Shown here: piece by piece, positions 7,155-28,613 of the stretch
Layout: every line of letters starts with the position of its first letter
Position numbering within the stretch: the first letter of the stretch is position 1
Virus record (IMG/VR): IMGVR_UViG_3300036851_000152
Coordinates: 1-42,474 of that record
Source: a virus
Length of the DNA: 42,474 bases
Strand: one strand, 5' to 3'
The notes under the pieces: model-generated
Told to the model about the DNA's origin: nothing
The model's database searches: none
What the model saw: the letters and a program-made list of their open reading frames with translations, nothing else
Position numbers and translations under genes: made by a program

Positions 7155-7166
7155 GGTTTTCGGCTA
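7155..7166 (-). promoter_or_regulatory. Late start-associated element, copy 1 (amidase)
   Basis: TAGCCGAAAACC on the minus strand, five bases before ATC at 7149. Here it lies 19 bases after the upstream gene's TAA, so it is not part of that stop codon. Confidence 0.8.
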
Positions 7167-7185
7167 GCTCAGCCGCACCCGTGAC

Positions 7186-7704
7186 TTAGATTTTGAAGAC
7201 TCCCGCTTCAAACTTGCCGTCAGAACCCGTACTCCCAGGAATGACCAAGCTTCCACCGGAGTTCTGTTGCACACCGATACGAACAATGTCTCCCGCCGAC
7301 AACGGAAAAGCCATCGAGACGTTCATGTAATGCTCCGTAGCTATGGCAGCTTCCGTGTGGCGTGCATGGATGTTTCCGTTGAGCGTGACATAGATTTCCC
7401 GGAACCCGGTCGCGTTCGAGGGCCAGGCGACACTTGCCCAGATGTAGTAGTTCCCGGTGAGCCCAGTAGGAATGGTTAAGCGATCCGGGTTCCCGGCAAC
7501 ATGAAAACCGTCGGCATCGTAGATTTCTTGTTCGAAGAGCAGATTCGTCGGTGTGCTGTCGCCGATTACCTGGCCGTCTGCGTCGTAGACGACGGCATGG
7601 GGGCCTTGGAAGAGAAAGTTGAGGTTGTCGCGCCACTGTGCATTCGCGGTCGCGACAGGGATAAACGTCGGGGTGTAGGTGGGTGGGGTCGTCCAGACAG
7701 CCAT
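7186..7704 (-). CDS. Tail fibre/receptor protein with C1q-like jelly-roll pattern
   Basis: 172 residues. An N-terminal TTPPTYTPTFIPVATANAQW segment is typical of phage tail appendages that dock to the baseplate. The C-terminal ~110 residues alternate beta strands (GNYYIWASVAWPS, REIYVTLNGN, GDIVRIGVQQ, FEAGVFKI) like C1q/TNF-type trimeric heads. It lies between the minor tail protein and lysin, the usual place for a receptor-binding tip. Confidence 0.7.
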   Translation of the reverse strand: MAVWTTPPTYTPTFIPVATANAQWRDNLNFLFQGPHAVVYDADGQVIGDSTPTNLLFEQEIYDADGFHVAGNPDRLTIPTGLTGNYYIWASVAWPSNATGFREIYVTLNGNIHARHTEAAIATEHYMNVSMAFPLSAGDIVRIGVQQNSGGSLVIPGSTGSDGKFEAGVFKI

Positions 7705-7705
7705 G

Positions 7706-9013
7706 TCACCAGATCAGCATCACGTCGGTTCCGAGAACGGCGGTGCCGAGCGGTTTGAAGTTGGCCGCGGTCTCAAGCGTTGACACGGGAGAGAGCCGAA
7801 ACGTCGTTGTCCACCGCAGCGGCGCTGCCGTGTACTCATGGCGAATCCCCTCGATGCGACAATCCAGTGTCTGCACCGATCCCTTGCCCCAGTAGCATGA
7901 CTTGAAGGTGATCTTCTCGCCGATCACCCGTCCCAAAGCATGAGGCCACAGGTTGTCGTCCATCTGCGGCTGAAGCGTGATTGACTTGATCCGGTCCAAA
8001 GGCTGCTTGTAGCGGTCGACGAGGTACATGGTTCTCGCCTCGATCTCCGTCGCAGCTGCCGCCCACAGCTCTACGGTCGCAGCGGCCGGCCCATAGTCAA
8101 TCCTTGAGGTCGCATCGGAAGTTTCGTAGATCGGTGACTGCTGATCGTTCGCCCGTCTCCCCGTCGCATGATTTACGAGATGCTCAACATCTTGTTCCGG
8201 ATCGGACAAAACGAACGGAAGCTCTGCTCCCTGCGGCGAATCACTGAACGTCGCCTGCGAGGTTGCATAGTTGTTGAGCCGGAAATACTTGTCTTGAAAC
8301 ACCACGTTCCCCGATGGAGACATGAACAGAAATCCGCCCTCGGTGTCTTCGATCTCTCGAGCATGATTGAGCACATTCGACGGCGCGAACCCATAAGCCA
8401 TCTGATCGACAACCCCAGGCGAGAGTTCTCTCCATCCGATCGGCCACCCTGCTTGGTCTAATAACCACGCCAGTCGTTGATCGGCCCGTTCCCTACCGCG
8501 CTCCTGATGGATGAACTGGCCAGGGTTGTTCGGATCAGAGATCAGCGCAGTTGCGAACGTTTCCTTGCCGAAGACCGCGAACGCGTCGGTGAGAGGGAGT
8601 TCGACAGTGCCCATCATCGCTTCCCACTTTTGCGGCCACGAGTTAACGAACCCGTCGAACAGGTCATAGACGATTGCGTTCCAGGTTGCTTGGAGAGAAG
8701 AGCGTTTACGGGGTTTTAGGTTGCCGTAGTTCGGCCCTGACGTATTCGTCGGGTCATAGGCACGATCACGGTTGTCCAAAGTGAGAGTTGCAGTTCCAGG
8801 CTGAAAATCATCGAGCTCCGATCCACGGCCACGCTCGACCACAAACCCCAGAAGATTGTTGGGCTCCTGCACCTGCCATGTCGGTGTGGCTAGCGGCGCG
8901 GTCGTGAACGCGATTCGGCTAGTAAGCGCAGGCAGATGAGGATTGATGGCTTCTAGAAGTTCAACGCCTCCGTAGAGGTCATCGCCATAGACGCCAGTCC
9001 CGTAGGTGGTCAT
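7706..9013 (-). CDS. Minor tail / baseplate protein
   Basis: 435 residues starting TTYGTGVYGDDLYGG, a signature of siphophage minor tail proteins. The middle carries GTATLTLDNRDRAYDPTNTS, the 'nNrdr.fdp' motif of baseplate hub or distal tail proteins, and an SDPEQDVEHLVN segment. It follows the tailspike and precedes the fibre gene. Probably forms the tail tip and anchors appendages. Confidence 0.8.
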   Translation of the reverse strand: MTTYGTGVYGDDLYGGVELLEAINPHLPALTSRIAFTTAPLATPTWQVQEPNNLLGFVVERGRGSELDDFQPGTATLTLDNRDRAYDPTNTSGPNYGNLKPRKRSSLQATWNAIVYDLFDGFVNSWPQKWEAMMGTVELPLTDAFAVFGKETFATALISDPNNPGQFIHQERGRERADQRLAWLLDQAGWPIGWRELSPGVVDQMAYGFAPSNVLNHAREIEDTEGGFLFMSPSGNVVFQDKYFRLNNYATSQATFSDSPQGAELPFVLSDPEQDVEHLVNHATGRRANDQQSPIYETSDATSRIDYGPAAATVELWAAAATEIEARTMYLVDRYKQPLDRIKSITLQPQMDDNLWPHALGRVIGEKITFKSCYWGKGSVQTLDCRIEGIRHEYTAAPLRWTTTFRLSPVSTLETAANFKPLGTAVLGTDVMLIW

Positions 9014-10660
9014 TTAGTTGACGCTCCGGGCGAGTTCAAGCCAGTTCGTCCCATCCGAGACAAGCGAGATCGTGTCGTCGGCGGTCGTAACGAAGTTGCC
9101 GGCGAGCTTGAGGTTGGAGCCGTCAGTAAAGGTGAGAGCGCCGGAGAAGGCCAATGTAACTTGGCGTCCTGCGTAGGACGCGGTAACGGACGTGATCGTC
9201 GTCGTGCCCGTCACTGTCACAAAATCATGCGCGGTCGGCAATGTTATGGTCGCTGCTGATGCGACAGATGAGGAGGCGTCCGTTGTGATGTTGCGGACCT
9301 TGAATCCGGTCTGGTTCTGTCCGCCGCCGCCGAAGTCAGCGGTGTTGTTGCGAAGCTTGACGCCCTGCACAACGACGCTGGTGATCGTTGTTAGCGCATC
9401 ACCGTTCCAGGCATTGACGGCCATGTTCGTGCAGTCGGTGATCGACCCGCCGCTGTAAAGAATGTTATTGGACTTCCAAAACAGAACACCGCCGCGATCT
9501 CCAGCCCCGCTGTTGCCGCATGAACTGACGTTGTTGCCCTCAGCGACGTGGTCACCCGATGTGCCACGGAAGGCAATCCCGCCACCAGTTCCGGTTCCGG
9601 TATTGCCACAGTTGACGATCGTATTCCCGGCCAACGTCACCTTTTGAACGTCCTGGGTTCCGCTTTCGTACTGGACATCGATCCCATATACAAGGCAATC
9701 GGAAATCACTTGGCCAGTAACAGAGATGTATCGGCAGGAGACGCTATTAGCGCTGTTGATACGAATACCGGCATTGACGGTGTCACGGACCGAGCCCGCT
9801 CCGATCGCGACATAGTCAGAGTTCTCGACGCGGATCCCGTTTCCGGCCGTAACACCGTCGATGACATGGCCCGAGACAGTGACCCAACGGGATTTGACCG
9901 TCGACGTGTGCAGGAAGTCGTAGTCGATGTCGATCGCATCGTCGCGGACGTTGTCGACGATAGGCGCTTCGAGTGTGACATGGTCGCAGCCATTGACCTG
10001 GACACCGTTGCCATTCGAGTCGTGGACGGTCGGAGCCTTGATATGCACGAAGTCGCAGTGTTCAAACCACAGCGACTGGCGGATCAGCCCCGTGATTCCG
10101 TACCCCTCAACTTCAACGTTGTCGATGATGAGATATGACGTATTACGAAGATGGCAACCATGGCTGCCGCTTGCATCCGCGTGGATCTTGAAATCCTTGA
10201 GGACGACACGCGTGTTCAGCGTTTTTGAGGTTGAGTAGACGCCCGGTGTCCCCATCGTGATCAAGCCGTGGCCAGTGTCGATTGAGCCCTTAATCACCGA
10301 CGAGTGGCCGACGCCGATCACGGAGACATTCGACTTCAAGATCAAAGGCGTCGTCGTGACCTTGTAAGTGCCCTTCGGTAAAAACACGATGCCGCCGGCT
10401 GCCGAGTTCGCCGCATCGATCGCCGCTTGGATCGCCGCACGATCATCAGCCACCCCGTCACCGACTGCGTTGTACGTTTTCCCTTTGACGTTGAAGACAG
10501 GAAGGGTTTTGCCGGAAAAGTTGATTCCGATCTCGGCCTCAAGCTTGTTGATCGCGTCCGCATAGTTGTTGTGGTCTGCGGCGTGGGTGGCGAGCATGAC
10601 GGTTGCGTCTGCCCGTGATGTGGAAAAGCTGTCGAGGCCACCCGGGTAGGAACTTGGCAT
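9014..10660 (-). CDS. Tailspike with right-handed beta-helix (pectate-lyase-3-like)
   Basis: 548 residues. The N-terminus (SYPGGLDSFSTSRADATVML) with an adjacent helix is a common actinophage tail-attachment module. From residue ~58, FNVKGKTYNAVGDGVADDRA then AIQAAIDAAN and IVFLPKGTYKV form the entry to a pectate-lyase-3 beta-helix; many short repeats follow (IIDNVEVEGYGI, VTVSGHVIDG, VTLAGNTIVNCGN). The C-terminus is a beta domain (TISLVSDGTNWLEL). A depolymerase acting on host surface glycan is likely. Catalytic acids cannot be named. Confidence 0.85.
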   Translation of the reverse strand: MPSSYPGGLDSFSTSRADATVMLATHAADHNNYADAINKLEAEIGINFSGKTLPVFNVKGKTYNAVGDGVADDRAAIQAAIDAANSAAGGIVFLPKGTYKVTTTPLILKSNVSVIGVGHSSVIKGSIDTGHGLITMGTPGVYSTSKTLNTRVVLKDFKIHADASGSHGCHLRNTSYLIIDNVEVEGYGITGLIRQSLWFEHCDFVHIKAPTVHDSNGNGVQVNGCDHVTLEAPIVDNVRDDAIDIDYDFLHTSTVKSRWVTVSGHVIDGVTAGNGIRVENSDYVAIGAGSVRDTVNAGIRINSANSVSCRYISVTGQVISDCLVYGIDVQYESGTQDVQKVTLAGNTIVNCGNTGTGTGGGIAFRGTSGDHVAEGNNVSSCGNSGAGDRGGVLFWKSNNILYSGGSITDCTNMAVNAWNGDALTTITSVVVQGVKLRNNTADFGGGGQNQTGFKVRNITTDASSSVASAATITLPTAHDFVTVTGTTTITSVTASYAGRQVTLAFSGALTFTDGSNLKLAGNFVTTADDTISLVSDGTNWLELARSVN

Positions 10661-12997
10661 TTAGCTGAATCCCGGCTGCGGCTGGTCGATGATGATCCCG
10701 TTGAAGCCGGCGACCCGAAGGACCTCACGGAGTCTGCGGGCAATCTCCCGAGGATCGCCGACGCCAACGTTCATGGTGATGTATGCGTTTCCGGCTGCTG
10801 CTCTACCGACAGGCTCGGGGCTACCCGTGAAGTTTCCGGCCAGCGTCCAGCCTGGCTTCAACCAGCGGAGCTTCCGCATCGCGTTGTCGAACAACTCGAC
10901 GTGAACGTGGTCGCGATGGCCGCCGATGCGGAACCGCCCGCCGAGCGGATCATAGAACACGTCTTCAATGCCGGGACGCTGGATCGCGGCCAGTGCAAAA
11001 CGGGCCATATTCGCGGCAGAGCCAGCGACGTCGATGGCCTTCGACGGATACACACCATGCTTCGACGGTCTCCCGCTTGAAGTAATCGCGCCCGGTCGGT
11101 ATCCACTGGTGAGAACAAGCTCCATGTTCTGGGCAAGCGCGAGCTCGTCCCAGAGTCCAGGGTTGATGTCCATGCGCCCTCGCCCGACAGGACCTTGGCT
11201 CGGGATTGGAGTCGGCGGAGCCTTCGCCCAAGCATCCCCGACCTTGTCGCCAATCGCGCCGGGAATACCTTTAAGAATGTCCCAAATCGCACCCGGAAGC
11301 CCTTTGATTGCATCGACGATCGCGTCTTTTAGCCAAATGCCAATTTGCTTGCCCCACTCCTTGATCGCGTCCGCCCTGTCCTTGATGAACTCCCAGATGT
11401 TGTTTACGACACCCCAAACGGCAGCGCCGATCCCGACGATCGCGGCGGGTATCGCGTTCTTGATCCAGCCTCCGAGCGCTGCACCCCAGCCCTTGACAAT
11501 GTCGATTCCCTCAAGAAAACGAGCCCAGATGTTGTTGACGATCTCCCAGACGAAGCCGGCTAGACCTTTCACACCATTGACAACGGCATCTTTCAGCCAT
11601 CCGCCGAGGCTCAGCCCCCAGCCGACGATTGTCTGCACATTCTCTTGCCAGTTCAGCCAGATCGCTTTGACGAAATCCCAGATCCGCCCAGCGATACCCG
11701 TAATACCGGAGACAGCACCAGCTTTGATCTTGCCGCCGAGTTCTGCTGCCTTATTAAAGATGTCGATAAAGAACCCGACGATCACACCGGGGATCGCACC
11801 GATGAAGTCTCCGACCGCCTTCTTGACTTCGCCGAAGTGGGTGATCAGCCAGACGAGCGGATGCTTCTGAACGAGATCAACCATGAAGTCGATCGCTCCA
11901 CCGACGATGTCTTTTATGAAGTTCCAGACCGCGTCAGCGGCGCCTTTGATCGCTTCCCAGGTGCCGATCACGATGTCACGGAACGTCTCCGACTTCTTCC
12001 ACAGAACGACGAAAGCAGCGCCAAGGGCAAGCAAAGCAATAAGGATGAGACCGATCGGATTCGCTAACAACGCAGCGTTCAATAGCCACTGAACAGCAGT
12101 CCATGCGAGGACCGCGCCACGGATGATCGCCATTCCAGCCGCATACACCTTCATGGCTGCACCAGCAATGAGCAATGTCGCTATCAAACCGCCGATCACT
12201 CCTGCCAAAATCTTTGTGATAGTCGTGTGTTCGCGGAAGAACCCGACCACAGCGACCAATTTCGGGACGAGGTTGCCGACAATATCGCCAGCAAGATTGT
12301 TGAACGTCTCGCGGAGGATTCGCAACTGGCCAGGCAAGGTTTTCCCTGCCGCTTCTGCTGATCCGCCGAACTCGGTGCGGAGCTCGCCGAGGATCATCTT
12401 CTGCGCTTGCATCGTCTTCCCGCTCTCAACCAGTGACTTGATCTGATCTTGCTGCGCTTTCGTAAACGACACGCCCACCCGCCTCAACGCCGTTAAACCA
12501 CGCACGGGATCGTTTAGCGCCTTCCCGACGAGGACCGCGCTGGATTGCATGTCTTTACCCATCGCCACCGACAAATCCAAGGTGGCTTTTGTCGCCTGAT
12601 TGAAAATATCTCGGCCACGACCTGTTTCATTGCGGATCTTGGTAAACGTCAGAAGCATGTTCGCCCCCGACTGGATCGCCTCGTCATCTACGCCTGACTT
12701 CTTCATCAGCGACGCAGCGAGCGAATCCACCTGCTTGGCGGTCACGTTCGCGATCCCACCCGTCGACTTCAACACTGCATTCGTTTGTGCAGCGACGAGT
12801 TGACCTTGCCGGAATTCGTCCCAGCCAATCTTCGCCGCCACCGCCAAACCTCCAGCAATGGCAGCACCAGCGATCTTTGCCGCCGTCGAGATGCCCCTAC
12901 CTGCTTTCTGCATTCCTGTCTCGGAGTCACGCATGGCACGATCGAACTGGCGCGTGTTCGCAGTGAGGATCGCCTCAAGGCGGGCAACAGTTGCCAT
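10661..12997 (-). CDS. Tape measure protein with C-terminal M15-like peptidase domain
   Basis: 778 residues. The N-terminal ATVARLEAILTANTRQFDRA and ~200 following helical residues match phage tape measure proteins. Two hydrophobic segments follow (KILAGVIGGLIATLLIAGAA and LANPIGLILIALLALGAAFV), then three or four repeats of a WGxxLGGWxKxA...NNIW unit. Residues ~620-710 hold SGRPSKHGVYPSKAIDV and IGGHRDHVHVEL, which look like the His/Asp/His zinc site of D-Ala-D-Ala carboxypeptidase-type (M15/LAS) enzymes. The tape measure may therefore open peptidoglycan during entry. Confidence 0.88.
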   Translation of the reverse strand: MATVARLEAILTANTRQFDRAMRDSETGMQKAGRGISTAAKIAGAAIAGGLAVAAKIGWDEFRQGQLVAAQTNAVLKSTGGIANVTAKQVDSLAASLMKKSGVDDEAIQSGANMLLTFTKIRNETGRGRDIFNQATKATLDLSVAMGKDMQSSAVLVGKALNDPVRGLTALRRVGVSFTKAQQDQIKSLVESGKTMQAQKMILGELRTEFGGSAEAAGKTLPGQLRILRETFNNLAGDIVGNLVPKLVAVVGFFREHTTITKILAGVIGGLIATLLIAGAAMKVYAAGMAIIRGAVLAWTAVQWLLNAALLANPIGLILIALLALGAAFVVLWKKSETFRDIVIGTWEAIKGAADAVWNFIKDIVGGAIDFMVDLVQKHPLVWLITHFGEVKKAVGDFIGAIPGVIVGFFIDIFNKAAELGGKIKAGAVSGITGIAGRIWDFVKAIWLNWQENVQTIVGWGLSLGGWLKDAVVNGVKGLAGFVWEIVNNIWARFLEGIDIVKGWGAALGGWIKNAIPAAIVGIGAAVWGVVNNIWEFIKDRADAIKEWGKQIGIWLKDAIVDAIKGLPGAIWDILKGIPGAIGDKVGDAWAKAPPTPIPSQGPVGRGRMDINPGLWDELALAQNMELVLTSGYRPGAITSSGRPSKHGVYPSKAIDVAGSAANMARFALAAIQRPGIEDVFYDPLGGRFRIGGHRDHVHVELFDNAMRKLRWLKPGWTLAGNFTGSPEPVGRAAAGNAYITMNVGVGDPREIARRLREVLRVAGFNGIIIDQPQPGFS

Positions 12998-13020
12998 CAG
13001 CCGACCAACCTCTTTACACT
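12991..13020 (+). promoter_or_regulatory. Promoter for plus-strand DUF4177-like gene, predicted leaderless
   Basis: TTGCCA (12991-12996), an 18-base spacer and TACACT (13015-13020). The ATG begins 7 bases after the -10 box, so transcription should start at the start codon. The promoter overlaps the tape-measure start on the other strand. Confidence 0.6.
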
Positions 13021-13026
13021 CCGCCG

Positions 13027-13173
13027 ATGGAAATCTGGGAATACAAAGCGCGAAATCTCAAAAAGGTTGCCGGGCCGCTCCTCGAGAGCGATTTCAACAA
13101 GCTCGGTCAGGAAGGCTGGGAGTTCGTCGCGATGGCTGACGGTTACGCGATCTTCAAGCGTCGCGTCCACTAG
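13027..13173 (+). CDS. DUF4177-like mini-protein (plus-strand insert)
   Basis: 48 residues: EIWEYKARNLKKVAGPLLES, then a LGQEGWEFVAM motif and IFKRRVH end. This W-E-Y...LN-x-LG-x-EGWE pattern is DUF4177-like. It sits on the plus strand between tape measure and chaperone genes, with its own promoter and no ribosome site, and its stop overlaps the end of the frameshifted chaperone frame. A moron-like gene perhaps expressed from the prophage. Function unknown. Confidence 0.7.
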   Translation: MEIWEYKARNLKKVAGPLLESDFNKLGQEGWEFVAMADGYAIFKRRVH

Positions 13174-13847: not shown

Positions 13848-13914
13848 ACGTCCTCCTGATCGAGAAGATGCAGCGACGCCGCAACGTGTTCACACCAGGC
13901 GCAAGCCAGATCAC
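13840..13914 (-). CDS. Possible 24-residue peptide after tail tube
   Basis: GTG 13914 overlaps the tail-tube TGA as GTGA, and the stop falls within the next gene's first codons. The product is basic (IWLAPGVNTLRRRCIFSIRR). The coupling matches this genome's habit, but it is very short. Confidence 0.3.
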   Translation of the reverse strand: MIWLAPGVNTLRRRCIFSIRRTYG

Positions 13915-14903
13915 AGCGCCGAGATTTGGTTAGTCACTTGGATGTTCAGGTAACGGCCCGCACCCCAGGCACTGTCGTAAACCGAGTCGAATGTGTACGT
14001 CAGAACCTTCAGGCCTTCTTGATCATCGAACGCATTGATCGCGCTGATCTTGCCTGCGAAGTCGACGAGACAGTCATATTTGGCCGTACCTGCCCCCGCG
14101 TTCTCCGTTGATACAGCAGCAAGCCGGATGTAGCGCGTATCCCCAGCGCGAGCGTTGGTCAGATAGCCCATCCCCGTCGAATCTGCCGCAACGGTGAGTT
14201 CAATTTGAACCGTTGGCTCGAGATTCACATGCGAAGCGAATGACGCATTGGCGCTATTAATCGGCCAGACAGCGCCCCAACGGTCATTACACCTGAGCAC
14301 GGCATTGAAGTCGCGAAGCAATTTCGTCCCGCCCAGACCTCCAGACGTCGCGTCTACATACACGTCAAGATGGGTAGGCAGCATCGGCTTCTCCTGGATC
14401 GATGTCGGAGAAGCAGTAAGCGTGATGTTGTCCTGGATCTGCTGCCCAATTGCCGAACCCGAAATCGCCACCCCGTCCGTCCGATTCCACGTCATCTCAA
14501 ACCCGTTGAATAGAACGTAGGTCGCCTTCTGCGCTCTCGTCGCCGACCCGGACTCAACCGTGTAGGTCTTAATCGTGTCCTCGCTTCGTCCGGCCGGCGT
14601 GAACGTCCACCTACGACCTGTCGTTTCCACCGTCGCCGGGGTCGTATTCACGAGCAACGAGCAGAACGCATAGACGATCTCGCTGTAGTTACCGACCCCG
14701 GACACACCCCATTCGGTGAAGTCTTGACCCGGCGTGATCTGCGATGCGACCAACTGCCCCTGCGGCCGGAACCTATTGAAGTTAATCGTGATCCCAGGTT
14801 CCAACGTCATCGAATTCAAGAGCTTGGACGCGGAAACCGCAGTCCCCGCCGTTGTTTCAGGGCCGATCTGGGCGCCTGTAAAAATGCTCGCGACCTCAGG
14901 AAT
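13911..14903 (-). CDS. Major tail tube protein, non-NTG or recoded start
   Basis: 330 residues if started at ATT 14903. ETTAGTAVSASKLLNSM followed by EPGITINFNRF and WGVSGVGNYSEIVYAF is a typical tail tube N-terminus. The first NTG codons in frame (TTG 14828, ATG 14819) would delete the conserved GTAV/ASK segment. A GGGAGGTGA site lies 9 bases before ATT. Alternatively a leader ATG at 14937, 5 bases after the late start element, reads 13 codons to TCC TGA, where a +1 shift enters this frame. Either route would be unusual; a one-base sequence error is the third option. Confidence 0.8.
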   Translation of the reverse strand: MPEVASIFTGAQIGPETTAGTAVSASKLLNSMTLEPGITINFNRFRPQGQLVASQITPGQDFTEWGVSGVGNYSEIVYAFCSLLVNTTPATVETTGRRWTFTPAGRSEDTIKTYTVESGSATRAQKATYVLFNGFEMTWNRTDGVAISGSAIGQQIQDNITLTASPTSIQEKPMLPTHLDVYVDATSGGLGGTKLLRDFNAVLRCNDRWGAVWPINSANASFASHVNLEPTVQIELTVAADSTGMGYLTNARAGDTRYIRLAAVSTENAGAGTAKYDCLVDFAGKISAINAFDDQEGLKVLTYTFDSVYDSAWGAGRYLNIQVTNQISAL

Positions 14904-14937
14904 TGAGGCTCACCTCCCGTGCTTGCAACGCCTGCAT
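14896..14937 (-). other. 13-codon leader overlapping tail-tube start
   Basis: ATG 14937 to TGA 14896 encodes MQALQAREVSLNS. It lies 5 bases after a late start element, like the other late genes, and ends inside the tail-tube frame. It contains the GGGAGGTGA site that would serve the ATT start. Confidence 0.5.
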
Positions 14938-14942
14938 GTAGA

Positions 14943-14954
14943 GGTTTTCGGCTA
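14943..14954 (-). promoter_or_regulatory. Late start-associated element, copy 2 (tail tube leader)
   Basis: TAGCCGAAAACC five bases before ATG 14937. This copy lies in the divergent gap between the plus-strand Arc-like gene and the tail tube gene, with no upstream stop codon to overlap, so the element is more than a stop-codon remnant. Confidence 0.8.
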
Positions 14955-14989: not shown

Positions 14990-14995
14990 GGGGCC

Positions 14996-16144: not shown

Positions 16145-16209
16145 TAGAAATGGTCGCCCTTCCCCTTAGCCTGGCGCCTTCCGGCCTTGGGATCATCGGG
16201 CGATAGAGG

Positions 16210-16280
16210 TAGCGGGCCCGGGAGTCGAACCCGGTTCTGAGGCTTATGAGGCCGCCGACTTACCGTCTGTCTCGCCCGCG
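16210..16280 (-). tRNA. tRNA-Met-like gene (anticodon CAT)
   Basis: On the minus strand the RNA has acceptor bases CGCGGGC/GCCCGCT, a D arm GAC...GTC with GG in the loop, an anticodon loop CTCATAA and a T arm CCGGG-TTCGACT-CCCGG. Oddities: C1-U72 mismatch, G instead of U at position 8, one C-U mismatch in the anticodon stem, and a tail ACCT rather than CCA. It may be a degenerate elongator tRNA-Met or a tRNA-Ile(CAT). It lies alone between a membrane gene and the nuclease homologue. Confidence 0.7.
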
Positions 16281-17070: not shown

Positions 17071-18051
17071 TCAGGCGATCAATGAGTCCTGGAGTTTCCG
17101 GGCGACAGCTAATGCAGTCGGCGGAAGGGAAAGTAGTTGAGGACGGCCCGCGAACACGATTACATTCTGTCCTTCTCCTGATGGGACCGGGGATAGGTCT
17201 TGGCGGTAATGTTCAACATCGCGATCGATTACTTGGGCCACCGCATCTAGAACCGCCTTCCTCACACGCCCTGGAATCGAGGGGAATCCCCAGGTGCCCG
17301 CCACCGATACAACGTAATCGCTCCTGATCTTCATTACGTCGCGGGTGAATCTCAGCCGTCGGATCGGCTCCCAGCTTCGGCGGTTCCTGGGTAGAGAAAT
17401 GATGTCCCCGGAGGCGACGGTCTCTTGGACATTCAGGTCATGATCAAGGATCTGGACCTGCGTGAATGACGTGAGGTCACCGACGTGGATGGTTCGGCCG
17501 CGGACGGCTGAGGCGTCAGCGTCGAAATAGCGGGTTTGCGGGTTTGTCCCGACGACTTTGATCTCCCGTTCAGACTCCTCCTGGAAAAGATCCGAGACAT
17601 CATTGATCGTCCGCACGAGCTCAAGTTCGTCGCCGACCTCAATGTTCTGTTGTTGCAGCCAATCTTTGGTTTCTTGGAGGCCGACTAAGGCCCAGGCTTC
17701 GAGTCCGGCGTTGGCTTGGAATTCGGAGGGGAGGACTTTGTAGACGAAGTCGGGTGGGGCGGCTTCGGCGGTGCCTGTTCCTTCGGCGCGAAAGATCCAG
17801 TAGCCGGATTTGGTGAGGGAGACGCCAGGGTTGAGTTTGAAGACGCCGGCTGAGACGCGTGCGAGCGGCTGTGAGCTTGTGGTGAGTGATGCGGGACTAG
17901 ACGCGGTTGTGATCGTCGACTCGACGCCGTCTGTGTCTTGTTGTTTGACGACGATCTGGGTTGGGTCCGTGGCGACTGGCGGGGTGCCGACCGTCCATGT
18001 CCATTGCGGGACGGCGCGGTCGCCGACGTTGACGGTCTCTACGTTCGCCAC
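17071..18051 (-). CDS. Head-tail connector protein with N-terminal beta domain
   Basis: 326 residues. The first ~110 residues are beta-rich (TQIVVKQQDTDGVEST, GVFKLNPGVSLTKSGYWIF) and resemble an added Ig-like or adhesin-like domain. From ~115, AWALVGLQETKDWLQQQNI, VRTINDVSDLFQEESEREI and a long C-terminal helical part match gp6/Ad1-type connectors. The GTG at 18051 follows a late start element by 5 bases. Confidence 0.75.
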   Translation of the reverse strand: MANVETVNVGDRAVPQWTWTVGTPPVATDPTQIVVKQQDTDGVESTITTASSPASLTTSSQPLARVSAGVFKLNPGVSLTKSGYWIFRAEGTGTAEAAPPDFVYKVLPSEFQANAGLEAWALVGLQETKDWLQQQNIEVGDELELVRTINDVSDLFQEESEREIKVVGTNPQTRYFDADASAVRGRTIHVGDLTSFTQVQILDHDLNVQETVASGDIISLPRNRRSWEPIRRLRFTRDVMKIRSDYVVSVAGTWGFPSIPGRVRKAVLDAVAQVIDRDVEHYRQDLSPVPSGEGQNVIVFAGRPQLLSLPPTALAVARKLQDSLIA

Positions 18052-18056: not shown

Positions 18057-18068
18057 GGTTTTCGGCTA
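18057..18068 (-). promoter_or_regulatory. Late start-associated element, copy 3 (connector)
   Basis: TAGCCGAAAACC five bases before GTG 18051. Its TAG is the stop codon of the repeat-protein gene. Confidence 0.85.
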
Positions 18069-21084: not shown

Positions 21085-21088
21085 ATCC

Positions 21089-21517
21089 TTACGTCACGTC
21101 GATTTTCGCCAAACCGGTCGCGTCCCACTGGACCGTGAAGTTCGCCGCCGTCACCGACTGCGCCCCCAGGTCGTAATAGGTCATCAGCGGATCAGTCGTC
21201 GACGCCCCGGCGGTGTTCTCCCACACGACCGCATACCTGATCCCGGAAATCGTCGCGGTCGTCCAGACCGCGTCTGCCGCGTCGAACCGCCACTCGTCCG
21301 TGCCGGCATCGTAGGTGGAGGTTTTCGTGCCGAGCGTGACCCCGTTCGCGGTGTAGTTCGTGCCGGTGACTTCGTTGGTGGCGTCGTTGAAGAAATCGTC
21401 GGTGTCCTGCGCTGGCACGTAGGTCACGGTGTGCAGCGAGCACTGCATCGTCCCGGTCAACACATCCGTCTTCGTTGCGTCGAATTGGCGGTCGATGAAG
21501 AGGCCGTACCAGGGCAT
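21089..21517 (-). CDS. Phage head/tail decoration-type protein
   Basis: 142 residues. YVPAQDTDDFFNDATNEVTG then TNYTANGVTL, WRFDAADAVWTTATISG and FTVQWDATGLAKI are the conserved words of a widespread phage structural protein usually encoded near capsid genes. Start overlaps the previous stop (TAATG). Probably a capsid decoration or minor head protein. Confidence 0.75.
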   Translation of the reverse strand: MPWYGLFIDRQFDATKTDVLTGTMQCSLHTVTYVPAQDTDDFFNDATNEVTGTNYTANGVTLGTKTSTYDAGTDEWRFDAADAVWTTATISGIRYAVVWENTAGASTTDPLMTYYDLGAQSVTAANFTVQWDATGLAKIDVT

Positions 21518-21849
21518 TAGTCTTTCGCCTCCTCGATCTTGTCGATCTTCAACTCGGCGTCGTCATAGCGGCCCTGGTCGCGCTTCCGCCGCTCAATCTC
21601 CGCTTTCACCCACGCTTCGGTCAGGGCTTTGCCGCCGAAGCGAGGATCGATGGCGAGCAACCCTGGCCGGCCGGTTTCCTTGGCTTCCTCGAGCCGGGCG
21701 AACGTCAACGGGAAGCGTTCATGGCGGCGATAGTGGGCGCGTTCAGCAAGCAGCCTTGCCTGTTCGCGGTCCTTCGCATAGAGGGACATGCGGACGCGTC
21801 CCTCTTTGCCTTTGAACCAGACGTGGAATCGCTTCTCGCCCTGCGCCAT
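21517..21849 (-). CDS. Basic helical protein of structural module
   Basis: 110 residues: FHVWFKGKEGRVRMSLYAKD then AKDREQARLLAERAHYRRHE and a C-terminal charged helix. ATG 21849 lies 6 bases after a late start element. Function unknown. Confidence 0.6.
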   Translation of the reverse strand: MAQGEKRFHVWFKGKEGRVRMSLYAKDREQARLLAERAHYRRHERFPLTFARLEEAKETGRPGLLAIDPRFGGKALTEAWVKAEIERRKRDQGRYDDAELKIDKIEEAKD

Positions 21850-21855
21850 CAGAGG

Positions 21856-21867
21856 GGTTTTCGGCTA
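21856..21867 (-). promoter_or_regulatory. Late start-associated element, copy 4
   Basis: TAGCCGAAAACC six bases before ATG 21849; the upstream gene's stop is a few bases away. Confidence 0.85.
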
Positions 21868-21871
21868 GCTA

Positions 21872-22912
21872 CTACTCGACCGCCGCCGCGCAATTTGCGT
21901 CGTCGCGGTCACTGAGCCCGTCTTCGTCGTTGTCGATACCGTCGTAACACTGCGGCTCCGGCGGTGGCGGCGGTGGCGGAGGCGGCGGAGGTGGTGGTGG
22001 TGGTGTTCCATTAGCGACTGTGAACGGGATCACCAGCGAACCCCACAATTGCCCCGTGAACTGCCCTGACGAATACGCCCTCAACATCAAGACGTGCGGC
22101 CCATCCGCGAGCCTGGTTGTGTCGATCGCGAGACGCCCGGTAAACGCCCCGGCCTGATCCAGCACGATCATGCCTGGACTCTCCGGGACAGCATGAAAGT
22201 GTGGATCAACCGAGGCGAACGACCGATCAACCCTCTCGTCGCCGGCACCCTGGAGAACCCTCACAGGCGGCGTCCAAAGCCCCGAGACGGCCTGGAACGG
22301 GAACTCCGACTGAGAGGTAAAGCGCCCGTTGATGTAGCCCTTAACGCTTCCTGAAGCCGTCTCATACCAGCCTCGCCCCTCGGGTGTACTTGTGGCCTGT
22401 GTCAGGTTCGTCGAGCAGGAACGAACACAGACCTGCCAGCCGTTCGTCGCCAGGCTCTTCGGCCGCGACACGATCCCAGGACGGATCTCCGAATGAATAC
22501 GGAGTTCATGCATCCCGGTCGCAAGGTCAGGGACCGTGATCGAGTTGACGAATGTGCAATCAGCCGTATCGCAGACCTGTCTCGGCTCCCTTGTAACGAG
22601 CGTGTTCGATGCATCCTGAACACGCACGAACCTGAGCATCCGATTCCCGTCCTGCGCGTTGTGGAGCTTCGAGACGACGTCCAGCTGAAACGATCCCTGG
22701 ACGATCTGGTAAAGCGGGAAGCACGCCCCGGAATGCACATGCTCAGCCTGTCCGTAGCTGTCGGTTTCGTTGTCGGACCAGCCTGACTGCGACTCGAGAA
22801 AGACGCGTGCTTCCGGGTAGCCGGTACAGCTGAACGGGTCAGGGTTTCCGAGAGCCTGCCCCGCAATCAGAAACGGAAACAGCACAGCGACCAGGACTAG
22901 CGCCGGTCTCAT
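21872..22912 (-). CDS. Secreted protein with polyproline spacer and calcium-repeat-like tail
   Basis: 346 residues. N-terminal signal peptide (RPALVLVAVLFPFLIAGQAL, cleavage likely after Gly-22). A ~280-residue beta-rich ectodomain with several Cys pairs (CSCTG-like, CDTADCTF, CVRSCS) follows. A run of about 15 Pro leads to CYDGIDNDEDGLSDRDDANC, a thrombospondin-type-3-like DxDxDG calcium motif. No such protein is expected in a capsid/tail operon; it may be exported and alter the host surface, or be virion-associated. Confidence 0.7.
   Translation of the reverse strand: MRPALVLVAVLFPFLIAGQALGNPDPFSCTGYPEARVFLESQSGWSDNETDSYGQAEHVHSGACFPLYQIVQGSFQLDVVSKLHNAQDGNRMLRFVRVQDASNTLVTREPRQVCDTADCTFVNSITVPDLATGMHELRIHSEIRPGIVSRPKSLATNGWQVCVRSCSTNLTQATSTPEGRGWYETASGSVKGYINGRFTSQSEFPFQAVSGLWTPPVRVLQGAGDERVDRSFASVDPHFHAVPESPGMIVLDQAGAFTGRLAIDTTRLADGPHVLMLRAYSSGQFTGQLWGSLVIPFTVANGTPPPPPPPPPPPPPPPEPQCYDGIDNDEDGLSDRDDANCAAAVE
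21957..22011 (-). repeat. Proline-codon microsatellite
   Basis: A run of CCN codons encoding about 15 consecutive Pro in the secreted protein. On the plus strand it appears as GGN repeats. Such runs are prone to length change. Confidence 0.75.
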
Positions 22913-22918
22913 CCATGT

Positions 22919-22930
22919 GCTTTTCGGCTA
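22919..22930 (-). promoter_or_regulatory. Late start-associated element, copy 5 (variant)
   Basis: TAGCCGAAAAGC, one base different from the other copies, six bases before ATG 22912. Its TAG is the stop codon of the glycosyltransferase gene. Confidence 0.75.
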
Positions 22931-23626: not shown

Positions 23627-23841
23627 CGCGGATCGATCGCCCGCAGGCGGACCGTCGTCTCTGTCTCCTCGATTCCCACGCGCGCGCCGCAACATGGGCA
23701 AGCATCGTTCCTAATCCCGTCAAAGACATGGAAGCGATCGAACATCCGCTGGGCCTCCACCACCGTCAAAGCACGGCGCAAGCTCTCGTTCTCAAACCTC
23801 AGCGCTTCCTCTTCGGAAGCCCAGACTGGGACGCTGCTCAC
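23623..23841 (-). CDS. Coiled-coil zinc-ribbon protein
   Basis: 72 residues. Helical N-terminus (ASEEEALRFENESLRRALTV) then CPCCGARVGIEE. GTG overlaps the previous stop. Co-translated with the glycosyltransferase. Function unknown. Confidence 0.6.
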   Translation of the reverse strand: MSSVPVWASEEEALRFENESLRRALTVVEAQRMFDRFHVFDGIRNDACPCCGARVGIEETETTVRLRAIDPR

Positions 23842-24176
23842 CTTCCCACGGCCGCGTCAAAAGCGACCACGGTGCTATGCGCCGTAAACGGAAGGGTGGC
23901 ATGAGTGTTACGGACACGCAAACGACACCAACGCGCCACGGACGTTATCGACGTATACGAACCAGCAGTCGTGGTGATCGTGTCGGTCTGAAGAGTGGAG
24001 GTGCCGCCGTCTCTCGACCAGTCGACCTCGAAAACGTAGGTGCCTCCTGTATTCGTTCGCAGCACATCAAGCGGCGGCGCCTTCTTCTTGATATCGATCC
24101 ACCCTGACTGATCTTGACCGAGTGCAGCCACAAGCGCCGTGCTGCTCCAGATGTCAACCATTCTCCGGCGCGGCAT
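23838..24176 (-). CDS. Structural-module beta protein
   Basis: 112 residues; RRRMVDIWSSTALVAALGQD then FEVDWSRDGGTSTLQTD and WCRLRVRNTHATLPFTAHST. Strand-rich, like small head-completion or decoration proteins. The start follows the previous TAA directly (TAAATG). Confidence 0.6.
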   Translation of the reverse strand: MPRRRMVDIWSSTALVAALGQDQSGWIDIKKKAPPLDVLRTNTGGTYVFEVDWSRDGGTSTLQTDTITTTAGSYTSITSVARWCRLRVRNTHATLPFTAHSTVVAFDAAVGR

Positions 24177-24398
24177 TTAGCTGCGCTCACGCTCAAGCGG
24201 CGGTGCCGGGATCTCTTCGATGTCGTAATGCGCGTCGATCGGCCGGAAATAGGCCGGCACCGCTTCGAGCAGCGGATGGCCTTTCCGTACTCGTGTTTTA
24301 CCTCGGTAGTAGGGATGATTTTTGCCGTCGATCAACGAGACGCCTGTTTCGATGGCGACGTACATCTCCGGTTCTGGCTTCTTGCGTGGTCTGCCCAT
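24177..24398 (-). CDS. Small head-module protein
   Basis: 73 residues starting GRPRKKPEPEMYVAIETGVS with YYRGKTRVRKGHPLLEAVPA. This 'Y.A...G.....G..Y.+GkTRVr.gHPLl...P.yF.p' pattern is common in actinophage head modules after the capsid gene. Function unknown. Confidence 0.7.
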   Translation of the reverse strand: MGRPRKKPEPEMYVAIETGVSLIDGKNHPYYRGKTRVRKGHPLLEAVPAYFRPIDAHYDIEEIPAPPLERERS

Positions 24399-24474
24399 AA
24401 TGCCCTTTCCTAGCTAAGGGTGGGCGAGGGCGCTAGGAACCCTCGCCCGGCTTCGTGGCTCATGTACCCAGCGC

Positions 24475-24741
24475 CTAGCTGAGCCACCTTTTCTTCGCCT
24501 TCTCCTCCCGGTACTTGGCCCCACGCTCACGGGCCTTCTCCGGGTCATCACCGGACAGCTCGGCCTTGGTCGGCTTGCCGACCGCGCGCAGAGCATGCCC
24601 GGATGGAGTATCAGCCGCGTCCGAGTCCGCCGGCGGTGGAGTCTTCGCAACGACATCTGCCTCAAGGAGACTCGGCGCAGGATCAGGTTCAGAAGGCGGG
24701 AGCACGCTGGCTCCTGGACTGTCGCTTTTGCTCAACGGCAT
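24475..24741 (-). CDS. Small Pro/Ala-rich protein after capsid
   Basis: 88 residues, ATG 24741 behind GGAGG. The first half is Pro/Asp/Ser-rich and disordered; the second half is a Lys/Glu-rich helix (KARERGAKYREEKAKKRW). May be a minor head or assembly protein. Confidence 0.6.
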   Translation of the reverse strand: MPLSKSDSPGASVLPPSEPDPAPSLLEADVVAKTPPPADSDAADTPSGHALRAVGKPTKAELSGDDPEKARERGAKYREEKAKKRWLS

Positions 24742-24763
24742 GTGCCTCCTTTCTCCTTTCCTG

Positions 24764-26272
24764 TTATCCGGTCCTGAGAACCCGGAACGCCGCCGCCGAA
24801 GTCACGCCAGCGCCGTTGCGGAACCAGGCGTACAAACCGCGTTGCCCGGTTGGGCGGTTGTTGGTGACATCGAAGAGATGCGGGATCACTTCGATGTTGA
24901 GTCCGATCCGGTCGACGATCACGTAGTAACGGAAGTCACCCATGATCACGATCTCCGACCCGGTCGTCAGCACCGCGTCCATCGCCGACGATTCATAGGC
25001 CGGGTAACCGAGCACCGTCACCCCATAGCTGCCTGGGGTGGGAACCTGGTTTTGCAGCCCCTGTTGCAGCTGCACACCTTGGTTCCAGACCGCCGCCCCG
25101 CCAGCGGTGTCGAAGTGCCGGACCTTCTGCGCGATCGCCCGGTTCATGACCATGCTTGCCATCGGCCTGAACCTCGGCGGCAGCGCCGCCTCGAGCGTGT
25201 CCAGGTCGGCGTAAGCAAACGAGGCTGTCCCTGAGGCGGTCGTGATGTTCGTCGCCCCGGTGATGACGCCCTGCGGCTCATTCGTGCCCGAACCCAACGC
25301 GAACTTCGTCGCTTCGAGTTCGTCCTTGCCGTCCTGCAACAGCCGCCCCATCTCCGCCTGAAGGCTTGGCCAGTCCATCCCGATCTCAATCGAGAAAGGA
25401 ATGAACGCCTGCGCCTTCTCGGTCGAGATCGTCGGCTGCGCCAACGTCGGCGCGTTATCCGAAGCCGCCGTCGCCTCAGCCGCATACGCGACCGTGACGC
25501 CACCGGAGGAAACGCCACGCCATTCATCGACGGTGATCTGCTCGACCCTGGCGATCGCCCGGAATGGATTCACAGCCAGGTTCGAGGTCGGGATGATCGT
25601 CGGATCGAGTTCGAACGGGACAGCGAACCCGCCTGCCGAGCCGGTCAGCGACAACGCTCGCTCCAGCATCTGTGACTGCGAGAGCAAACGCGACTCGTCG
25701 GTCGAGAGGGAATTGCCGAACACGTACTTGCCGACCGCCCGCTTGTACGCTGGCGAGCCGGTTAGGACGATCCGCCGCGAAAGCAGACCGTCCTCGGTGT
25801 CCTTCTCCTCGACAAGCGCGGATACGTACTCCTGCGATGCCTCGCGAGTTGTCCGCATCGCCCGGCTCGAGGGGAACTTGGCATCATCGATCACCCGTCG
25901 TGCCCGCTCACGCAGTTCGTTGCCTTCAACTGAGGGATCACCGAAGTCACGGCGGATGTTGGACAGGTCGTAGATGTTCTCGACCGGCTTGGTGAACTGC
26001 ACGTCGATCCGTTCGACGTTCTCGGGCTGGTCGGCGATCGCCTTCAGCCGCTCGGTGCGGACGTGCAGCTCGCGGATCGACTCGTCAATGTCATCGATCT
26101 CGGTGTTGAGCCGATTCCATTCCTCTTTGGTTTCAGCCGAGAACCGTTTGCCGGCATGTTCTGCGTCGATCTCGTTCAGGCGTTCCTTGCGCTTGGCGCG
26201 TTCGTCCTGAAGCTCCTCGAGACCGTGCCTGCTGAACTCGTCGCCCTCGGCCGCTGTGTTCACAGTTGCCAC
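24764..26272 (-). CDS. Major capsid protein, HK97 fold with N-terminal delta domain
   Basis: 502 residues. Residues 1-115 are a charged coiled-coil delta domain (LEELQDERAKRKERLNEIDA) that acts as internal scaffold and is normally removed by the protease. The rest carries HK97-fold landmarks: GSAGGFAVPFELDPTI, AAEATAASDNAPTLAQPTIS, IPFSIEIGMDWPSLQAEMGR, FALGSGTNEPQGVITG and IVIMGDFRYYVIVDRIG. GTG start with AAGGAGGAC; it overlaps the protease gene's end by 13 bases. Confidence 0.92.
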   Translation of the reverse strand: MATVNTAAEGDEFSRHGLEELQDERAKRKERLNEIDAEHAGKRFSAETKEEWNRLNTEIDDIDESIRELHVRTERLKAIADQPENVERIDVQFTKPVENIYDLSNIRRDFGDPSVEGNELRERARRVIDDAKFPSSRAMRTTREASQEYVSALVEEKDTEDGLLSRRIVLTGSPAYKRAVGKYVFGNSLSTDESRLLSQSQMLERALSLTGSAGGFAVPFELDPTIIPTSNLAVNPFRAIARVEQITVDEWRGVSSGGVTVAYAAEATAASDNAPTLAQPTISTEKAQAFIPFSIEIGMDWPSLQAEMGRLLQDGKDELEATKFALGSGTNEPQGVITGATNITTASGTASFAYADLDTLEAALPPRFRPMASMVMNRAIAQKVRHFDTAGGAAVWNQGVQLQQGLQNQVPTPGSYGVTVLGYPAYESSAMDAVLTTGSEIVIMGDFRYYVIVDRIGLNIEVIPHLFDVTNNRPTGQRGLYAWFRNGAGVTSAAAFRVLRTG

Positions 26273-27237
26273 GATGGTTTGTCCTCCTTTCCTTCTAGGT
26301 AGTCGTGGCTCGGCTGAGTGCGGCGGCTCTCCGTGCTGGGAGTGGTCGCGGCAGAAGTTTCGGCTTCTGTGTCGTCCGGCTCCTCGGAGAGTGCGGCGGC
26401 TCGGTCGAAAAGTTGTCGTAGTCCTTCAGGGGCAGTGATCAGCTGCTCGCCGACGAGCGCAGCGAGCGCGACCTCATCGGTCAATGAGCGCACGCCAGCT
26501 GACGCGCCAGCATAGGCCGGGAACGGCGTCGGCCCAAATTCGCGCAACCGCAGTTCCATCACCGTCGATTCCGGCAAACCGCTCGGGTTATGGTCGGACC
26601 GCGTCGGCCGCGGATCGAATTCCTCTTTGACGACCCCGAATTTGAATGAGGCGCCATAGAGGCCGGCGCGCAGCCCGGGCAGCAGATCGTGGTTATAGGT
26701 CGTGTCCAACAGCGGCACTTCGTAATAGGTGTCACCGCGCAGTTCTTGGATCGGCCCAAGCACTTTGTTGCCGATCGATGGGTCGAGTCCGTGATGGAAC
26801 AGCACCCTGATGTTGTCGCGGTTCTCCTGGATCGTCTTCTCGAATGCAGTCGGGGAGATCCGCTCCATGAAATGCCCCTCAAGTTTGTTGTTGATCTCGG
26901 CCCATTCGCCGAATGAGCCGAAGCGCCCGGTCAGAGTCGGCATTCCGTCGTCGCTGTCACGGAGCGAGGAGGTCCCTGGCCCGATCGCGCGCACAAGATC
27001 AGCCTTGCGTTGCCGCGCCTCCATTTCCCCGGAGCGATCTTGTTCCTCGCGCTCGTTCATATCCGGGTTTTCGGCTAGGCGCGCGTCGGGAACATGCACG
27101 TACAAGGCAGCCTGCTGTTTCTTCGCTGCTTCCTTCGTTGGATGGCAGCCGTGGAGCTTCCCGGTCTGCTGGTTTTTGACCGCCCACGGCCGACTAGCGG
27201 GACATGCCTCGGCGTCCTTGCTCACCGAATACGGCAT
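26260..27237 (-). CDS. Prohead protease with N-terminal domain and a possible internal start
   Basis: 325 residues from ATG 27237. Residues 1-58 contain CPASRPWAVKNQQTGKLHG and HPTKEAAKKQQAALYV, a domain often fused to phage maturation proteases. After LAENPD a second ATG (27060) begins the protease proper; FGEWAEINNKLEGHFMERIS, VLFHHGLDPSIGNKVLG and FRRLREFG-like segments match HK97 proteases (His and Ser catalytic sites). Both ATGs lie exactly 5 bases after a late start element, so a full and a short form (266 residues) may both be made. Confidence 0.85.
   Translation of the reverse strand: MPYSVSKDAEACPASRPWAVKNQQTGKLHGCHPTKEAAKKQQAALYVHVPDARLAENPDMNEREEQDRSGEMEARQRKADLVRAIGPGTSSLRDSDDGMPTLTGRFGSFGEWAEINNKLEGHFMERISPTAFEKTIQENRDNIRVLFHHGLDPSIGNKVLGPIQELRGDTYYEVPLLDTTYNHDLLPGLRAGLYGASFKFGVVKEEFDPRPTRSDHNPSGLPESTVMELRLREFGPTPFPAYAGASAGVRSLTDEVALAALVGEQLITAPEGLRQLFDRAAALSEEPDDTEAETSAATTPSTESRRTQPSHDYLEGKEDKPSWQL
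27066..27077 (-). promoter_or_regulatory. Late start-associated element, copy 6 (internal to protease gene)
   Basis: TAGCCGAAAACC in the coding frame CTA GCC GAA AAC (LAEN), five bases before ATG 27060. It is translated through, so it cannot rely on a stop codon. Confidence 0.85.
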
Positions 27238-27242
27238 GTGCA

Positions 27243-27254
27243 GGTTTTCGGCTA
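27243..27254 (-). promoter_or_regulatory. Late start-associated element, copy 7 (protease)
   Basis: TAGCCGAAAACC five bases before ATG 27237; its TAG is the portal gene's stop codon. Confidence 0.85.
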
Positions 27255-28598
27255 GGCAGGAACTTCGATCTCGGTCGGCTTGCCGTTCTGCGAGCCCGGC
27301 TCCTGCAACTGCACACTGAGAAGCCCTGTGTGCTTCAGCCGCTTCAAATCCCCGCTGGTAATCGCGTCCACAACGCTGTCGGTTGAGAACCCAGCCTCAG
27401 CCAACGACTTGATCGCCCGCGCTTGCCGTTCCTGCACATCAGCGGCGTCCTTCAGGTCCTCCTGCAACGCCGGAATATCACGGTCGTCATACCAGAGCTC
27501 TGATCCGGGCGGAATGTCGATGATCGTCGACAACGAACCAGCCACGTTTCGCCACAGCGGCCGCATCGTCAAGTCGGCGAAGTTCCGCATCGCCTCCGCA
27601 AAGTTGCCGGCATTCAATGACGAGCCCTGCAAGCCTTCGGAAAGCCCGACGACCGTGGGTGGAACCCCGGCGGCCGCCGCGATTCGCGTCTCGCCAGCGC
27701 CCTGCACGACCTTGAAATCCATCTGCTGGATATTCGCGCCGATCGGGATCGGATCGACAGCGGCACGCATGAACACAGACTTGTATGCGTTCCCCGCACC
27801 CTCAGCAGCAGCCCGATATTTGGCCACGAACGAGTCGAACTGATCCTGCGTCATCGACTGCGGATCGATCTTGTAGAACACCGGCGGCACTCCACCCTGC
27901 TCAAGAAACTTGATCTTGTGGTCACGCCAGCCGGAATCCGCCATCACCTCACGAACGACCGGGGTCAGCCATGACATGCCGCGGTATTGGGCGAGCGGGT
28001 CAGGGATCGGCGCGTAATGCGCCACCTCCTCACGCAGAAAATTCTGCGGCTCCTCGCCAGAGTGCGGTCCACCCGGCCAGTATCGGTAGCCGATCACCTC
28101 GGCATCCGGGTCGCTCTCCCCGTCGCCGCCCAAAACGATCCCAACCCAATCCGGCCGCAGCCTCTTCAGCCTATTGCCGCGTCTGACGATCAGCGAGTTG
28201 CCGGCGAATGAGACATCCACCTCCATGCGTGCCAGCAGATCCCCGGTTGTCTTTCCTGGCTCGGGCTGCTCGAGCGGCAGCAGCGATTCCCGCCCGAACA
28301 ACTCACCCGGCCGACCGGAACGCAGCTGCCGAAACTGGAACCTAGCCTCTGAGAACAGCAACAGGCGCTTCAGCACACATGCGAACACAACCCCGTTCGC
28401 CTGGTATGCGCCACGCACCAATCCAGGGAAGCCATTGCCGATCTCCTCCAGCTTCTCGGTCGGATAGCTGACGCCGCCCAGCAGCGGATATTGATGCGAC
28501 AGGTACGTGAAATACTCGACATATTCGTCAAGCGACAGCGACGAACGCTCCAAGCGTTTCGAGTTGACGATGTTCAGCGGGCCGAGCCGCATAACCAC
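27252..28598 (-). CDS. Portal protein (HK97-type)
   Basis: 448 residues. Forms the dodecameric portal through which DNA enters the head. Family landmarks: FACVLKRLLLFSEARFQF, RLRPDWVGIVLGG, EVAHYAPIPDP, KFLEQGGVPPVFYKI, AGETRIAAAAGVPPTVVGLS and NFADLTMRPLWRNVAGSLST. GTG 28598 or ATG 28592 may be the start. It lies between terminase and protease, as expected. Confidence 0.92.
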   Translation of the reverse strand: MVMRLGPLNIVNSKRLERSSLSLDEYVEYFTYLSHQYPLLGGVSYPTEKLEEIGNGFPGLVRGAYQANGVVFACVLKRLLLFSEARFQFRQLRSGRPGELFGRESLLPLEQPEPGKTTGDLLARMEVDVSFAGNSLIVRRGNRLKRLRPDWVGIVLGGDGESDPDAEVIGYRYWPGGPHSGEEPQNFLREEVAHYAPIPDPLAQYRGMSWLTPVVREVMADSGWRDHKIKFLEQGGVPPVFYKIDPQSMTQDQFDSFVAKYRAAAEGAGNAYKSVFMRAAVDPIPIGANIQQMDFKVVQGAGETRIAAAAGVPPTVVGLSEGLQGSSLNAGNFAEAMRNFADLTMRPLWRNVAGSLSTIIDIPPGSELWYDDRDIPALQEDLKDAADVQERQARAIKSLAEAGFSTDSVVDAITSGDLKRLKHTGLLSVQLQEPGSQNGKPTEIEVPA

Positions 28599-28601
28599 AA
28601 G

Positions 28602-28613
28602 GGTTTTCGGCTA
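28602..28613 (-). promoter_or_regulatory. Late start-associated element, copy 8 (portal)
   Basis: TAGCCGAAAACC, three bases before GTG 28598 and nine before ATG 28592. The terminase stop is immediately upstream. Confidence 0.85.

Follow-up and report, generated by a model that had tools for sequence, protein, structure and literature searches.

Late gene regulation is poorly defined in most actinobacteriophages, and what start-associated repeats do has been an open question since 2011. The subject here is a 12-bp element, TAGCCGAAAACC, that recurs in the viral genome IMGVR_UViG_3300036851_000152 (IMG/VR; 42,474 nucleotides, analysed whole and called the window). Comparison with related phages makes it likely that this element is a late promoter of a single-box (-10-like) type, read by host RNA polymerase with a phage-encoded sigma factor. 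The closest described system in its working is the T4-type late promoter, a short single box (TATAAATA, -13 to -6) that precedes late genes, is used with the small phage sigma factor gp55 and has a consensus that drifts with a diverged sigma factor, as in Aeh1 (PMC1524935). The window resembles T4 in having a single box before late genes, with a candidate phage sigma factor, but the box has another sequence and another position relative to starts, and the sigma-factor-like gene of the window has region 4 in another frame; no kinship of the proteins is claimed.

Two classes of asymmetric repeat in mycobacteriophages resemble the element in placement. The start-associated sequences (SAS) of cluster K are 13-bp repeats that stand 3-7 bp before start codons in one orientation and sometimes hold the upstream stop codon; they have the sequence GGGATAGGAGCCC, whose AGGAG core pairs to 16S rRNA, lie in the non-structural arm and mostly follow gaps of >50 bp (PMC3203893). 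The sequence-only reading had likened the element to SAS. The positional resemblance is real: both are asymmetric repeats in one orientation, close before starts and sometimes with a stop codon inside, and the 3-7 bp spacing fits most copies (those at the tail gene stand at 27-39 nucleotides (nt)). However, TAGCCGAAAACC has no AGGAG core and a weak duplex energy, the window copies all belong to the structural and lysis block rather than a non-structural arm, and the gaps of >50 bp are another SAS feature absent from the element. Cluster A stoperators, according to the available parts of PMC6550527 and PMC3029335, are asymmetric 13-bp sites in one orientation that are mostly intergenic, have a consensus that co-varies with its protein and number 20-30 per genome, early-promoter operators included; no fixed spacing to start codons is described in those parts.

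Copies of the element in the window

The 12-mer occurs eight times in the window, only on the minus strand, with seven exact copies and a single C-to-G deviant at 22919; the eight coordinates listed in the sequence-only reading are all exact. The conserved unit is CTAGCCGAAAACC, a C preceding the 12-mer in 8/8 copies. About 0.0014 exact copies per strand are expected from the dinucleotide composition, and the 12 matches found at no more than two mismatches were reached in none of 100 shuffles. All eight copies lie in the late block, as had been claimed. The repeat is genuine and far above chance, keeping to one strand and to the late region. A plain stop-codon remnant, which the earlier reading had doubted, was rejected, since the TAG of the element serves as a stop codon in only some of the copies. 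A scan of IMG/VR for the 12-mer followed by ATG gave 119 matches, mostly single and presumably due to chance.

The early arm of the window holds no copy of the element. This bears on the proposal that the copies are operators or stoperators, at which a repressor bound to scattered asymmetric sites would block prophage transcription as in the cluster A mycobacteriophages. Asymmetric sites of 12-13 bp in one orientation at gene junctions, a consensus that drifts between lineages and the presence of an integrase would all agree with such a function, but the early arm is where an early-promoter operator would be needed, the 8-9 copies per genome compare with the 20-30 described, and a repressor site would leave both the fixed relation to start codons and the missing Shine-Dalgarno sequences unexplained. 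A role of this kind is thus very improbable. The early arm encodes, also on the minus strand, a C5 cytosine methylase-like protein (36207-37034), an MT-A70 adenine methylase (39620-40198) and a tyrosine integrase (40768-41931).

Lineage versions of the element in related phages

The relatives are metagenomic and partly fragments, and all genomes were oriented with the late genes forward (the window being G0). Terminase searches found G1 (IMGVR 3300045283_000109), G2 (3300043610_000028) and G3 (also L130; 3300036851_000104) at 65-72% identity, a capsid search found G4 (locus L192; 3300015371_000212) and a search with the tail protein found L252. G3 has nine copies of the element, on one strand and mostly at genes that carry it in the window too. 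G1 has no copy of this 12-mer but five of TAGCCGAAGAAC, all on one strand, and L250/L253 (3300049564_000023) has five copies of the same version. G4 carries TAGCCGTACAAC and TAGCCGTAGAAC, L252 four copies of TAGCCGACCAAC, and G2 TAGCCGAATTAC and TAGCCGAATTCC. Together, five lineage versions stand at the same genes: TAGCCGAAAACC (in the window and one relative), TAGCCGAAGAAC, TAGCCGTACAAC, TAGCCGACCAAC and TAGCCGAATT[AC]C. All nine copies of G3 are in its late block; in G1, three of five are inside the block by the script limits, a fourth (15189) is exactly on its edge and the fifth is near the contig end. G3 also has the sequence TTCACAGAGAG five times; two early genes with GAGGAG have it upstream, and it is possibly a second start-linked repeat.

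Among 29 aligned copies TAGCCG is nearly invariant and the later positions depend on the lineage. The patterns used to pick the copies fix the 12-mer, so that in this alignment only the absence of flanking conservation counts as a test. There is no conservation upstream, and a -35-like box was not found there, the best 6-mer being present in 11/25 copies against 8-14 in the null; the element thus lacks the -35 at fixed distance of two-box sigma-70 or ECF promoters. The window version looks similar to the -10 of sigma-28-like promoters (GCCGATAA), a candidate that was rejected because there was no sign of a TAAA -35 and the versions of other lineages depart from it. Because the versions are uniform within a phage and different between phages, at the same genes, they suggest a recognising factor that co-evolves with the element.

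The host is probably actinobacterial, since relatives of the portal protein are found mostly in the genomes of Streptomyces, Nocardioides, Micromonospora and other Actinomycetota, and also in phages of Gordonia, Mycobacterium and Rhodococcus. Bacterial genomes scanned with TerL yielded no prophage. According to the title of PMC4633059, leaderless mRNAs are common in mycobacteria.

Start codons of the element genes

Across the phages most copies stand 3-10 nt before a start codon that has no Shine-Dalgarno sequence. The spacing in the window agrees with the earlier claim: to the most plausible start it is 5 nt in five copies, 6 nt in two, and 3 or 9 nt at the portal gene. Start codons that are not fixed by conserved N-termini are predictions, and the gene caller was a simple script. 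The first copy (28602..28613; this and all features below are on the minus strand) precedes the portal gene, with a GTG at 3 nt or an ATG at 9 nt, and is found at the same place in G3. The second (27243..27254), whose TAG is the portal stop codon, has an ATG at 5 nt that opens a small open reading frame (ORF) fused to the protease frame. The third (27066..27077), at the head protease, has its ATG at 5 nt (27060) and can be read in frame as LAEN; the claim that it is translated through holds for reading from an upstream ATG, but another ATG sits 5 nt after the copy. Copies at the protease start are also present in G1, G2, G4, L250 and L252. The deviant fourth copy (TAGCCGAAAAGC; 22919..22930) precedes ORF 21872-22912 with an ATG at 6 nt, and its AGC variant recurs at the orthologous site of G3. 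The fifth (21856..21867) precedes ORF 21517-21849, also with an ATG at 6 nt, and the sixth (18057..18068) precedes ORF 17071-18051 with a GTG at 5 nt. The site orthologous to the sixth carries the element in G1, G3, G4, L252 and L253, each in its own lineage version.

The last two copies precede genes with putative non-standard starts. Copy 8 (7155..7166) had been placed in a divergent gap, which is incorrect, as it precedes the endolysin (Amidase_2) gene on the same strand (6478..7149). The amidase N-terminus LVSRQAWGARAPKS begins at an ATC (7149), 5 nt past the element, with no ATG, GTG or TTG ahead of the conserved part; when the protein is started at the ATC, the matches to PF01510 (2.2e-10) and phrog_1493 (1.1e-31) both run from its residue 2. 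GTG is the start codon of the G3 ortholog, and the ATC may be a sequencing error from ATG. At copy 7 (14943..14954) the previously noted ATG at 5 nt exists but opens only a 13-codon leader ORF (MQALQAREVSLNS; 14896..14937), which may be translated and overlaps the start of the major tail protein (13911..14903). The latter appears to start at an ATT (14903) behind GGGAGG (14913-14918), because its conserved N-terminus (PEVASIF...) has no usable ATG, GTG or TTG in frame. One phage would thus have two non-standard starts, an ATC and an ATT. A tRNA gene with a CAT anticodon lies between tail genes (16208-16280) and has no counterpart found in the relatives scanned.

The absence of clear Shine-Dalgarno sequences from element genes, which had been claimed for the window, holds when five phages are pooled: among machine-called genes, a match of at least 5 bases is present in 0/14 element genes and 81/190 other genes (Fisher p = 0.001). 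This is what would be expected of a start-associated translation signal like the SAS of cluster K, an mRNA sequence that takes over from the Shine-Dalgarno sequence and brings in the ribosome, either by itself or by way of a phage factor. The distance of 3-10 nt that separates almost all copies outside the tail gene from a start, and the ATC at a conserved distance in the endolysin gene, can be read in the same way. The element is not a Shine-Dalgarno variant, however, and judged by duplex energy it pairs only weakly with the 16S 3' end; pairing with 16S rRNA was rejected because positions 7-11 vary between lineages and would have no fixed partner.

The tail gene and the protease gene separate a promoter from a ribosome site

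A ribosome-binding site would be expected beside a start in every case, which is not so at the major tail protein gene. The distance from the element to the start of the tail protein is 27 nt in G1 and L253, 28 nt in G4, 36 nt in L252 and 39 nt (to the ATT) in the window, and a Shine-Dalgarno sequence sits between the two in these four lineages (G0, G1/L253, G4 and L252). G1, G4, L252 and L253 therefore have the same order as the window, the element and then a leader bearing a Shine-Dalgarno sequence; in G3 alone is the tail-gene element directly at the start. The tail-gene elements are each of the version found elsewhere in that genome, the one in G4 having one extra change (TGG for TAG). Because these copies stand 27-39 nt upstream with a Shine-Dalgarno sequence in between, the element is better explained as a promoter than as a ribosome-binding site. 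The protease gene adds a second comparison. In at least seven non-redundant contigs of more distant relatives that lack the element, an AGGAGG-type site stands at the corresponding protease start, whereas the phages with the element have no Shine-Dalgarno sequence there. Genes of the protease type probably once used a Shine-Dalgarno sequence and are now without one. The replacement of AGGAGG by the element would also be expected of a translation signal, but with the leadered tail genes such a signal is unlikely overall.

Both facts fit a promoter giving an mRNA that is usually leaderless and sometimes leadered. Transcription would begin about 5-7 nt downstream of the element, once host RNA polymerase with the phage sigma factor had recognised it as a late promoter. 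Where a start codon stands at that point the mRNA would be leaderless or nearly so, while the gene of the major tail protein would yield a transcript with a leader and a Shine-Dalgarno sequence.

A sigma-factor-like gene accompanies the element

When all window genes were compared with G1-G4 and 32 outgroup contigs, a sigma-factor-like gene (30780-31272) was the sole gene for a non-structural protein that G0, G1, G3 and G4 share and every outgroup contig lacks. It lies directly before the HNH and terminase genes, ahead of the late block; an ORF for an IS1595-family (ISXO2-like) transposase (32316-33359) is situated slightly upstream of this block. The gene bears on a processing or antitermination site, which would act after transcription to set late mRNA 5' ends. 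Leaderless ends and a leadered tail mRNA are also expected of such a site, and the tail-gene distances and the AGGAGG of element-less relatives fit it too, though it ranks below a promoter. The factor shared by the element phages is the sigma-like gene, however, and no cognate nuclease or antiterminator was found among the proteins tested, which makes RNA processing or antitermination the least probable of the explanations considered. A phage single-subunit RNA polymerase was also sought among the large ORFs tested and none was found.

The sigma assignment is probable. The frame-0 protein (30802..31272) resembles sigma region 2 (YEPGRGSTTSFTGWATTNLRLRITDWFRQEYGRTR; Sigma70_r2 0.0058, residues 31-81) and is followed in the +1 frame by a region-4-like helix-turn-helix (30780..30953; Sigma70_r4_2, at best 1e-05 among homologues). 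Sigma70_r2 recurs in 3/6 members and Sigma70_r4_2 in 4/6, in the correct domain order. Profile matches in the PDB include FliA, SigE, SigW and SigH among response regulators, the sigma factors at E 0.08 upward. The two halves were folded separately and unchanged with AlphaFold2, which gave a predicted local distance difference test (pLDDT) score of 94.5 for the region-4 half and 73.6 for the region-2 half, which contains helices. With Foldseek the first matches of region 2 include SigI1, SigE, SigH, SigA and WhiG; those of region 4 comprise LuxR/NarL-type domains as well as region 4 domains of sigma factors. A search of 50,697 phage records gave no homologue of the sigma-like protein, and neither this protein nor the tail protein was found in any named phage.

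The gene and the element were also found together from either direction. A search with the sigma-like protein found L247 and L250, both of which contain the element, and L026, fetched by the 12-mer alone, also has the sigma-like gene. This distant phage (L026/L312) has one copy only, 4 nt ahead of an ATG, in a 66-bp gap that separates the sigma-like gene from a divergent operon leading to the terminase. This placement is promoter-like, and a single copy that heads an operon beside the sigma gene is not what a translation signal would predict. Terminase large subunit matches are present at both ends of the L312 contig (1-1272 and 15170-16324; 64% and 56% identity), reflecting two genes or an assembly effect. 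The short phage contig L247 carries a separate repeat, GGCTAGCCCCGACAAGAC, three times on one strand (3120, 3409 and 4124).

A probable frameshift joins sigma regions 2 and 4

The frames of region 2 and region 4 differ by +1 in 7/7 homologues (G0, G3, G1, L250, G4, L247 and L026). In two close pairs, selection switches frame at the junction. Substitutions before it fall on third positions of frame 0 in 33/48 cases (G0-G3) and 17/32 cases (G1-L250), and those after it on third positions of the +1 frame in 11/17 and 15/26 cases, respectively. The best change point is no more than 3 nt from the junction, with a wide likelihood range. Because region 4 is in the +1 frame in all homologues and the codon-position bias switches at the junction, programmed +1 frameshifting probably joins the two regions, so that the sigma factor would be made as a single protein. 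The junction is placed at GATC (30951..30954), with the consensus NAT CRA CYS in the seven homologues, and pausing at CRA may trigger the shift.

A sigma system is known in which regions 2 and 4 are encoded apart, in two separate genes (PMC8103513), whereas in the window they are in overlapping frames. In G3, G1, L250 and L247 (4/7 phages) the frame of region 4 has no ATG, GTG or TTG over the 150 nt that precede this region, and separate translation of region 4 in these phages is therefore unlikely. To our knowledge no sigma factor that requires frameshifting has been described, and a literature search for one returned nothing relevant.

Weighing the promoter reading

Several points weigh against a sigma-read promoter. 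An ATC should work poorly as a leaderless start codon, and spacings of 3-10 nt are wider than strict leaderless initiation from one start site suggests. There is no -35-like box upstream, though the sigma factor has a region 4. Every Pfam match of the window protein (r2 0.0058, r4_2 0.00076 and ECF 0.0012 on the joined protein) is below the curated cut-off, and the Foldseek matches of region 2 to sigma factors have an E of about 1, so that the fold support is weak. Finally, the sigma gene and the element were found within one phage clade, making their co-occurrence partly phylogenetic and not fully independent. The sequence-only reading had left three options, a regulator-binding site, a promoter and a translation signal. 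Of these a promoter is the best fit, given that tail-gene copies are followed by leaders, that the lineage versions are coherent and that the sigma-like gene co-occurs with the element; the other two rank lower.

Implications for late gene control

The comparison across phages separates the promoter from the ribosome-site readings and supplies a candidate factor for the element. Since the box occurs in five lineage versions and several of these come with a sigma sequence of their own, a ready test of specificity is at hand. A wider proposal is more tentative, and the odds are somewhat against it: late genes in a family of actinobacteriophage-like viruses may be switched on by a sigma factor made through frameshifting, which would read a single 12-bp box placed directly at start codons. 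One element would then set both transcription and the start of leaderless translation, and the unshifted sigma protein, with region 2 only, could be a second layer of control.

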